Shown: positions 37,004 to 59,838 of the stretch, piece after piece | How the letters are laid out: every line of letters begins with the position of its first letter | Numbering within the stretch: position 1 is the first letter of the stretch | NCBI RefSeq assembly: GCF_002843425.1 | Contig: NZ_NKXO01000007.1 | Coordinates: 1 to 64,000 of the forward strand | DNA length: 64,000 nucleotides | Reading direction: 5' to 3' | DNA from: Raineya orbicola | Lineage (GTDB): Bacteria > Bacteroidota > Bacteroidia > Cytophagales > Thermonemataceae | The notes under the pieces: model-generated | What the model saw: the letters and a program-made list of their open reading frames with translations, nothing else | Told to the model about the DNA's origin: nothing | Database searches by the model: none | Translations under genes and position numbers: made by a program

Positions 37004-40000
37004 TTAATTTTCAGGTGCATTTTGGGTAAAATTTTGATAAGGTACAAGCACCTTGCTAAAGCCTTTTCCCGTTTTTTCTACGCTAATTTTTGTAAAAATT
37101 CGCTCTTTGATTTCAGCCAAATGCGAAATAAGAACAATTGTTTTGCCTGAGCTTTGCAATGTTTCCAAAACACTAATAGCTGTATCCAAGGTATTGGCGT
37201 CCAATGTTCCAAAGCCTTCGTCAATGAAAAGCATACCAATTTCTACATTTCGGCTTGCCATATCTGCCAGCCCCAACGAAAGAGCTAAACTTACTAAGAA
37301 AGTTTCGCCTCCTGAAAGCGTACTTACTTCCCGAATAGTATCTGCCTGAAACCTATCTACAATACACAAACTTAACTCTTTTTCTCTATCATCTTTTTGC
37401 AGTGCGTAACGCTCCGAAAGATTTTGCAAATGCCTGTTGGCTCTTTGAATGAGTTGCTCCAAAGTAATATTTTGGGCAATACGGGCAAATTTATCTTGGG
37501 GGTTGGCAATTAAATCCGACAACTTTTTCCATTTATTTACAATAACCTCCTGATTTTCAATATTTTTTTGTAATTCCTGATATTTTTTTAAGTCTTTTTC
37601 GTTGCTCTCCAATTTTTCTCTGATACTCCCTAACCTTTGCTGATTTTCGCTTCTTTTTTGTTCAAGAGCCTGTTTTTTACCCTCCAGCTCTTGCCAACTT
37701 ACCTTAGCAGGTACTTTCTCACGCAAATTTTCTTGTTCTTTAATTTTTTCAGCAAGTAAAGATTGATTTTCTGTACATTTTTTCTTGTAATTTTCTATTT
37801 CGGTTTTATAGTTTTTGATAGTTTTTTCATCTAAAATTTTACTTTGCAGTTCGTCTATGTTTTGCAAACCTATTTCTTGTATAGCCTTTTCCAAAACTAA
37901 CTGCTCACTGCTTATTTTTTTGCTCAAATTTTCCAAATCTGTCTCTATTTGCTTTTTTTGAGCTTCAAAAGCTGTTAGCAGGTTCAGATGTTGTTGGAGT
38001 ATTTCTTGGGTTTTGCTCAATTCTTGCTCCAAATGCTCTTGATGTCTTTTAAGCTCTTCTTGAAATTCCTGATAGCTTCTGAACTGAATTTCAGGTACGA
38101 TTTGCCTACACTCATTTTCTGCATTTTGGTATTTTAGTTCAGCTTCTTGCAAGCGTTTGTTCAAATTTTCAAGCTCCAAGTTTTTTTGCAAAAGCTTATT
38201 TTCAATTCCTAAAATATGTTGCTCCGTTTTCAGGTGACTGTATTCAGTTTGCAATGCTCGCAATTTCTGCCTCTCTTTTTTTTGATTTTCAACTTTTTCT
38301 TCCTTCGTTATGATAAGTTCTGTGATATTTTGCTGATTGATGTTTTCGTTTTCTAAATTTTTGCTTTTCTGTTGAATTTCTGTTTGAAGTTCTTTCAAAT
38401 CTTTTTTCAAACGTTCTACGAGCGTACTTAAAGTTTGAGCTTGGTTTTGAAGTATCTTTTCTTGTAGCTCTTTAAGCAATCGTTCGCTTTCTTTCAAGTT
38501 TTTTTCAGTTTCTGATTCTGAAAGCTCAAAAGTTATATTTTGAGCAAAAGGGTGATGTGTAGAGCCACACAAAGGACATTCTTTACCTTCTTGAAGTTCC
38601 TTTCGCAATTCTGAAAGTTCTTTTTTTTGTTTTTCAAATATTACTTTTTCCTGATAAAGTGCTTTTTTTTCTTCTGAAAATTGAATTTGGGTTTGTAGCT
38701 CTATAAGCTCCTTTTGGGCGTTTTGAAGTTCTTTCTTCTTTACTTGCAATTCTTGCAAAAGAGAACTTTCTTTTTCTTGTAGTTTTTTTAGGCTTTCTAG
38801 TTCGTTGATTATCTTTTGTTCTTTTTCAATTTTCTGATTCAATTCATTTTCTGAAGCCTTTTCCAAAATTTGCTCCAATTCATTTATTCTTTGCTCAACT
38901 ATCTGGCTTTTTTCTTGATTTTCGGTAACATTTTGGCTTTCTTGCCACTTTATTTTTGCCCGATAAATAGCCATTTTAATGTCTTGTTCAAGTCTTTGCA
39001 GATACTCTTGCTCTCGCTCTTTTTCTTCGCTTAAACTCTGAATTTGGCTTTGGGCAGGAATAATTTCCTCTTGGATAATTTCAATTACTTTTTCTTTTAT
39101 CGAACTAAAATTTTTCAGCTCAGCTTCTTTTTGTTCCAAATTAGCTTTTTCTTGGTCTATGATTTTCTGCTTTTTTTGAATATCCTCATCAATTTTAGTA
39201 ATTTCTGATTTCTTGCATTCAAAATCAGTTTGATAGCCCTCCAATAGCCCAAATTGATGATGCAAAGGCAAAGTTTTTTCGTGCCAGTTGCAAAGTTCCT
39301 CTAATTTTTGGATAGAAACCTTTTTGGCTTGTAACTGCTCTTCTTGCTTTTGTAAATCTGAAATCTGATTAGAAACTTGCTCTAATTGCTTGCAAAGCTG
39401 TATTTTTTCAGCTATTTCTTTTATTTCTACCTCTAAATTTCTGTTTTCAGTTTCAAGTTCTTTTTGCTGATTTTGATAGCCTTGAACTTCTGTTTCATTC
39501 AAAAAATTGATATGCTGACGCTGTGTCTGCAAATTTTCTAATGTCTGCCTCTCATTTTTATGCCGTTCAAAGGTTTCCATTGAAATTTGCCTATAAATTT
39601 GAGTATTGGTAATTTTTTCTAAAATAGCGGCTTTATCTTTGGGGGCAGATTTCAGAAATTTAGCAAATTCGCCTTGAGCAAGCATCACAGAGCGAGTAAA
39701 TTGCTCAAAATCTAATTTCAGAACCTTCTGGATTGCCTCTTGGGCTTTTTCTTTCGAATTTTTTTGCTTAATGCTTTGGGATTCGTCCTGATGGTCAGTA
39801 AACCACATTTCCGTTTCATATTTATCTTTTTTCCTCTTCACATTCCATTGTGCAGTATAGATTTTTTCATTCACTTCAAATTTCACGGAAACATAAGCCT
39901 CTTTTTCATCTGTGGAAATGACTTTTTCAGCAATTTTTTGGGCTCCGTGTCGGTTGGTTCTTTCAAATAAAGCCAAAGTAATAGCATCAAGAATGGTAGT

Positions 40001-58472: not shown

Positions 58473-59005
58473 TTTTCCACAACTTTTTCTTTATGTAATA
58501 ATAATACTTTTTTTTATTTTTTATTGTTATTACTATTAGGGGCTGTGGAAAACTACTTTCGTATGAAATAATATTATTATCAACAGAAAAATGTGGATTG
58601 TGGAAAACTTTTTCAACATTCATAAAATATTAAAAATCAGTTTTTTACAAAAAGTTATCCACAGAATTTTTTGTAAAATGTGGAAAAGTGTGTGGATAAC
58701 TTTATCCACATTTCGCCTCAAAATTCTGTGGATAAGCTGTGGAAACCTGTGGAAAAATGACCAATTTTTGTGGATAACCTGACCTTACTCAGTGGAAAAC
58801 CGCTTAAAAATAGATGTAAGTTTTTTTGCAAATTTTAACATATTTGTGGAAAAAAAGTGCTTTTTCCACAGGTTTCCACAGGCTAAAAAGTGGAAAATTT
58901 TTCCTATCAAAAATTATGCCAAAAATAAATTTCCACAAGGTTTTCCACAGGTTTTCCACAAAAAAACACTACTTTTCCACAAAATTTTTGATACAATGTG
59001 GATAG
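58473..59005. other. Probable chromosomal replication origin (oriC): DnaA-box cluster
   Basis: About 22 nonamers with a TCCAC core lie in 533 bp of non-coding DNA. Perfect TTATCCACA boxes: 58655-58663 (+), 58691-58699 (-), 58702-58710 (+), 58727-58735 (-), 58769-58777 (-). TTTTCCACA boxes: 58473-58481 (+), 58544-58552 (-), 58599-58607 (-), 58679-58687 (-), 58748-58756 (-), 58845-58853 (-), 58862-58870 (+), 58941-58949 (+), 58952-58960 (+), 58973-58981 (+). Variants (GTTTCCACA, ATTTCCACA, TTTTCCACT, CTATCCACA, CAATCCACA) fill gaps. Flanking DNA is AT-rich on both sides. Genes on either side are transcribed away from it. dnaA is not in this window, as is often the case in this phylum. Confidence 0.85.
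58481..58552 (-). other. Candidate DNA-unwinding element with DnaA-trio repeat next to a DnaA box
   Basis: Reading the minus strand from 58552 there is a DnaA box TTTTCCACA (58552-58544), then GCCCC (58543-58539), then in-phase triplets TAA TAG TAA TAA CAA TAA (58538-58521), then an A/T-only tract. This is the order box, GC-rich gap, DnaA-trio (3'-[A/G]AT repeats), AT-rich DUE described for the basal origin-unwinding system of Bacillus subtilis and other bacteria. The A-rich continuation extends to about 58510 and a second TTA-type run to 58491. Functional assignment is by pattern only. Confidence 0.65.
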
Positions 59006-59154: not shown

Positions 59155-59838
59155 ATGAGAAAAGTCATCTTTACTTTCGTTTTTTCTTTATTTTTATCTT
59201 TGTATTTGAATGCACAAGGATTTCTTTTAGCTGATGTATTAGACCCCCAAGGAGCAAATCCAGCTCTACAGCAAGGCGGTACTTTCAATGTTGATGTAGG
59301 TACTCCTTTTGTCATAGATTGGGCAGAAGGATACATTTTTTATGGGAGCAAAAAGGATACCTACAAACTTCGTTACAATGCACTTACCGACCAAATTCAT
59401 ATTCTAAAAGAAGGCAAAGAAATTGTATTGCCACAAGGACAAGTAGAAAAATTCCACATTATTTATCAGGACAAAGAATACAAATTTACTTTCCTGACCA
59501 ACCTACCTGAAATTTCTTATGGCTACGTCCAAATCATTTATGAAAAAGATGTAAAGGTATATTACAGGCATCATCGTAAGCCTCGCAAACCTACTGATAC
59601 TGATAGTTATGCTAATAATTTAAAAATAGAAGCATTAGAAAAAGATGATAGTTTTGTTTTAATATTGCCTAATGGTAGAGCCTATTTCACGCAGGGAAGG
59701 CGAAAAGAAGTTTTAAGTATCTTTTCTGATAAAAAGAAGGAGTTAGAAGAGTTTATCAAAAAAGAAAAAATAAATACAGAAAAACTCAATGGCTTAATGC
59801 AGGTAGTGCTAAAATATGAAGAATTGACAAAATCATAA
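59155..59838 (+). CDS. Secreted protein of unknown function
   Basis: A 227-residue exported protein: signal peptide (about 1-20, ending LNAQ), then a beta-rich middle (FLLADVLDPQGANPALQQGGTFNVDVGTPFVIDWAEGYIFYGSKKDTYKLRYNALTDQIHI) and a basic C-terminal half (VKVYYRHHRKPRKPTDTDSY, then a Lys/Glu-rich helical tail). I do not recognise the family; the tail (FSDKKKELEEFIKKEKINTEKL) is probably a helix. A -7-like TAAATTTG is at 59123-59130. It is transcribed away from the proposed origin. Confidence 0.78.
   Translation: MRKVIFTFVFSLFLSLYLNAQGFLLADVLDPQGANPALQQGGTFNVDVGTPFVIDWAEGYIFYGSKKDTYKLRYNALTDQIHILKEGKEIVLPQGQVEKFHIIYQDKEYKFTFLTNLPEISYGYVQIIYEKDVKVYYRHHRKPRKPTDTDSYANNLKIEALEKDDSFVLILPNGRAYFTQGRRKEVLSIFSDKKKELEEFIKKEKINTEKLNGLMQVVLKYEELTKS

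Follow-up and report, generated by a model that had tools for sequence, protein, structure and literature searches.

The window analysed here, 64 kb long, is the first part of contig C7 (83 kb) of the genome of the hot-spring bacterium Raineya orbicola (G000; assembly of 3.07 Mb in 104 contigs). It contains a pair of divergently transcribed genes, one encoding a TPR-repeat protein and the other a probable secreted protein with a signal-peptide-like start, and the region between them is densely occupied by DnaA boxes (Table 1). The earlier note had taken this region for a probable chromosomal replication origin lying away from dnaA. The divergent flanks, the five TTATCCACA and ten TTTTCCACA nonamers and the AT-richness beside them that it described are all found where it placed them; its count of about seven one-base variants was slightly low, as such variants are present but number eight.

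Table 1. Features of the candidate origin locus, in positions of the window.
Feature	Position	Strand	Basis or remark
TPR-repeat gene, conserved flank, 606 aa	56597..58417	-	start 58417 as in relatives
Candidate oriC: 15 exact DnaA boxes (TTWTCCACA) and 8 one-mismatch boxes, both strands	58473..59005		counts and conservation in relatives
DnaA box TTTTCCACA facing the mirror array, 14-bp spacer	58473..58481	+	exact in R. orbicola
Putative AT-rich DNA unwinding element, bounded by two DnaA boxes that point inwards	58482..58543		AT content, box positions
Opposing (mirror) DnaA-trio array TAA TAA TAA TAC	58496..58507	+	conserved in 7/8 family genomes
DnaA-trio array TAA TAG TAA TAA CAA TAA, towards the TPR gene	58521..58538	-	motif layout
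GC-rich spacer GCCCC between box and trios	58539..58543	-	motif layout
DnaA box TTTTCCACA, start of the candidate basal unwinding system (BUS)	58544..58552	-	same place in 7/8 family genomes, one mismatch in G001 and G004
Putative DnaA-oligomerisation part, remaining 13 exact boxes	58553..59005		box positions
Probable secreted-protein gene, right flank	59155..59838	+	flank common to two close relatives; dxs instead in G002

The TTATCCACA boxes start at 58655 (+), 58691 (-), 58702 (+), 58727 (-) and 58769 (-). The TTTTCCACA boxes start at 58473 (+), 58544 (-), 58599 (-), 58679 (-) and 58748 (-), and further to the right at 58845 (-), 58862 (+), 58941 (+), 58952 (+) and 58973 (+). The AT content in 60-bp segments reaches 0.88 at the left edge of the cluster, which is among the highest values in the window. 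No tRNA genes and no Rfam families were found within the 64 kb. The 2-kb bin at 38001-40000 has an AT skew of -0.34 and is off-trend against the rest of the window. The secreted protein has no Pfam match; distant paralogs are encoded once in R. orbicola (G000:C45:6450-6803), once in a close relative (G001:C32:35006-35566), and twice in a more distant one (G002:C1:3610348-3611001 and 2833575-2834252).

The density of the boxes is far above the background. The window contains 18 exact matches to TTWTCCACA, compared to a mean of 2.16 and a maximum of seven in 100 dinucleotide shuffles. There are 147 matches in the whole 3.07-Mb genome, and the 15 of the cluster, lying within 509 bp, make up a tenth of them. 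The expectation for 519 bp is 0.025 boxes, and the Poisson probability of observing 15 is about 6e-37. A genome-wide count, which had been suggested as a check, revealed no equally dense second cluster among the complete genome lists of TTATCCACA and TTTTCCACA occurrences. The runner-up (C10:20307-20474, L022) has three exact boxes in 168 bp and one NNNTCCACA variant.

Close relatives were retrieved via the mutS2 gene. The same intergenic region with the same two flanking genes was found in G001 and G003, where it contains ten and twelve boxes, respectively. In the more distant G002, 13 TTATCCACA boxes were observed at C1:261595-262041, among the matches listed for its 4.11-Mb contig, upstream of a gene orthologous to the TPR gene, at 72% identity. 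The other flank there is what we take from the sequence to be a dxs-like gene, with a presumable mnmG/gidA-like gene three genes further. Since G002 retains the TPR gene and has the other flank replaced, it is the TPR gene that is linked to the cluster. The clusters of relatives contain up to 22 boxes, compared to 15 in R. orbicola. No second cluster was found in G006, and none in G002 among the matches listed (100 of 115).

The dnaA gene of R. orbicola is located on another contig (C8:59695-60651), consistent with its absence from this region in the earlier note. The encoded protein has the box-binding domain (PF08299, 119.8 bits; PF00308, 227 bits). For three relatives whose contigs are very long, the position of dnaA is 2.05 Mb (G002), 1.60 Mb (G114) and 0.88 Mb (G011), at distances of 1.8, 1.2 and 2.8 Mb from the cluster. 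The arrangement of Bacillus subtilis, with the cluster beside dnaA, is found neither in R. orbicola nor in these three genomes, and none of 12 dnaA-locus stretches, some of them overlapping, contains a box cluster, each having at most two exact boxes. Origins distant from dnaA are common in Bacteroidetes (PMC4755523), as the earlier note had maintained, and in this respect the present case follows a situation that has already been reported.

Strand composition was sampled in the same three relatives, the assembly of R. orbicola itself being in 104 contigs. The total GC skew follows gene orientation in these genomes, and therefore we adopted a strand-neutral measure, in which the GC3 skew is taken separately for the genes of each strand and the two values are averaged, in sampled 20-kb windows. 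The values to the right and left of the cluster are +0.046 and -0.037 in G002 (40 samples, Mann-Whitney p 2e-5), +0.024 and -0.021 in G114 (20 samples, p 0.003), and +0.034 and -0.031 in G011 (20 samples, p 0.002), where the p values take the samples as independent. The skew is weak and resolves the axis to about 0.25 Mb only, and at this resolution the best axis of a free scan lies at 0.2-0.35 Mb in G002 (cluster at 0.262), 2.85-3.05 Mb in G114 (cluster at 2.786) and 3.55-3.8 Mb in G011 (cluster at 3.670). In G114, an axis at the position of the cluster, 2.8 Mb, scores 0.039, compared to 0.042 for the best one, and the total and intergenic skews peak at 2.55-2.8 Mb. The skew check proposed in the earlier note, as far as it could be run in relatives, supports the origin: the strand-neutral axis passes through the orthologous cluster in all three. 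Against this, the total and intergenic skews of G002, which take no account of gene orientation, are highest at 0.5-0.75 Mb and not at 0.26 Mb. On the R. orbicola contig, the mean GC3 skew changes sign at the cluster, from about -0.03 on the left to about +0.04 on the right, in weak agreement with the above. On a 224-kb contig of G001, the local skew is positive to the right of the cluster and near zero to the left.

The TPR-proximal edge of the cluster has the layout of a basal unwinding system. The BUS has been defined as a DnaA box followed, on one strand, by a spacer no longer than 16 bp and then by three or more NAN trios (PMC8287927). Here, the minus strand has TTTTCCACA, GCCCC and six trios in succession. 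This arrangement recurs, with strand and edge unchanged, in G001, G002, G003, G004, G006 and G007; it is also seen in members of families f5, f15 and f9, where the arrays are shorter. The forward array exceeds those in all 300 shuffles in G000, G001, G002, G003, G006 and G103; in G004, G007, G021, G052 and G116 fewer than one shuffle in 40 reaches it. Significance against shuffles is lacking in most genomes of f5, f9 and f18, and no clear trio array was seen in G114, G035 and G005.

Clustered DnaA boxes also occur in loci that titrate or reactivate DnaA, such as datA and DARS of E. coli, and smaller groups of two or three boxes do exist elsewhere in these genomes, for example the runner-up on C10 and three mini-groups in G114. 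However, the cluster is by far the densest one, it coincides with the skew axis of three relatives and contains an unwinding module with trios, and no second oriC candidate was found, at dnaA or elsewhere. It is thus very improbable that the region is such a locus and not an origin. The mini-groups of G114, each consisting of three TTATCCACA boxes (C1:2404424-2404541, 2757842-2757892 and 2970023-2970064), flank its origin cluster within about 0.4 Mb of a 5.58-Mb contig, and may possibly be DnaA-titration sites.

The linkage to the TPR gene was followed across the order Cytophagales, with a cluster defined as at least four exact boxes within 600 bp, upstream of the TPR ortholog. Such clusters were found in all eight genomes of the R. 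orbicola family, in 6/6 of family f5, 5/9 of f15, 1/2 of f11, and in the single genomes of f18 and f9. In two loci (G005 and G128) the flank was shortened, which displaces the positions by about 210 bp. In f2, f4, f10, f13, f16 and f19, none of the 23 genomes has a cluster upstream of the TPR ortholog. The TPR ortholog is present without a cluster in f2, f4, f13, f16 and f19, so the origins of these families lie elsewhere or have moved. Among 29 class-level loci, of which 28 belong to other orders, none has an exact box in the 1.5 kb upstream of the TPR gene. Therefore the boxes are not a general promoter feature of this gene. The same 29 loci rule out the TPR gene as an origin marker for the whole class.

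Iteron-like box arrays occur on plasmids too, and the region could in principle be the origin, or what is left, of a plasmid or another mobile element that has integrated. This is hardly conceivable, as the boxes are located on both strands and are not evenly spaced direct iterons, the neighbours of the cluster are chromosomal genes (mutS2, the TPR gene), its place is unchanged in several families, the contigs that contain it in relatives measure 4-9 Mb, and there is no plasmid-initiator-like protein among the flanking genes checked. An equally slight chance is left to a DnaA-controlled promoter region serving the two divergent genes, between which the cluster does lie: DnaA-regulated promoters carry far fewer than the 15-22 boxes observed here, the right-hand gene varies (secreted protein or dxs) while the cluster persists, and the TPR gene occurs without it in other families and in the 29 class-level genomes.

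We conclude that the region at 58473-59005 is almost certainly the single DnaA-dependent chromosomal origin, oriC, of R. orbicola. A box cluster, an adjoining AT-rich element and, in three relatives, a strand-composition switch are found at a single locus, the genome encodes DnaA, and the origin assignment of the earlier note is supported by the unique density of the boxes, their conservation, the skew axis of the relatives and the unwinding module. The likely course of initiation can be outlined from the motif layout. DnaA, expressed from its gene elsewhere on the chromosome, would fill the boxes at 58553-59005. A filament of ATP-DnaA would then extend from the edge box at 58544-58552 (minus strand) across the GCCCC spacer onto the minus-strand trios, from 58538 to 58521, and melt the AT-rich element at 58482-58543, where helicases would be loaded and bidirectional replication would begin.

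Other Bacteroidetes origins, predicted by Ori-Finder/DoriC, are similar in that a box cluster lies at the skew switch and far from dnaA, as in Prevotella intermedia OMA14 (PMC4755523). Compared to origins of that type, the R. orbicola region is flanked by a conserved Cytophagales TPR gene, has a high number of boxes (15, and up to 22 in relatives), and its unwinding module is readable. An oriC is also listed for replicative complementation plasmids of Cytophaga hutchinsonii, from the same order (PMC5288383). The edge of the cluster shares with the BUS of the B. subtilis and Helicobacter pylori origins the box, the spacer of at most 16 bp and the run of at least three NAN trios on one strand (PMC8287927). 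As dnaA-distant origins of Bacteroidetes are already in print (PMC4755523), what the present case adds is a useful conserved flank and one unusual detail, a second trio array. The linkage of oriC to the TPR gene appears to be new, no description of it having been found in the literature searched.

The second array faces the first one from the opposite strand. Facing arrays of at least three trios each, right behind the edge box, were observed in 7/8 family genomes and in G021 (f15). In 1.1 Mb of sequence from R. orbicola and two related genomes, facing arrays with at least four trios each occur only at the origin of G002; the looser pattern, with at least three, gives 16 counts in the same 1.1 Mb on both strands, the origins included, where the pattern, being an inverted repeat, is counted once per strand. 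The box behind the mirror array (58473-58481) differs by one base in G001 and G003 and can no longer be recognised in more distant members of the family. In B. subtilis, the strand opposite the trios carries instead a DnaD recognition element (PMC10201434). One possibility, on the doubtful side, is that the inward-facing boxes and opposite-strand trio arrays form a two-sided device, in which DnaA filaments would assemble on both strands of one bubble and two helicases would be placed by sequence alone, without a DnaD recognition element. We consider this a lead rather than a result, because the second box is lost to recognition further away. An inverted repeat whose role is to facilitate melting or to fold into a hairpin would look the same as the mirror array. 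No description of facing trio arrays was found in the literature searched, most subscription journals lying outside its scope.

These observations pin down where replication starts in a family of thermophilic Bacteroidota. They also provide a simple marker of oriC, the TPR gene, in several families of Cytophagales, where dnaA misleads and the skew is weak. If the mirror arrays act as proposed, the placement of the second helicase (PMC10201434) could be addressed by mutating one short sequence.
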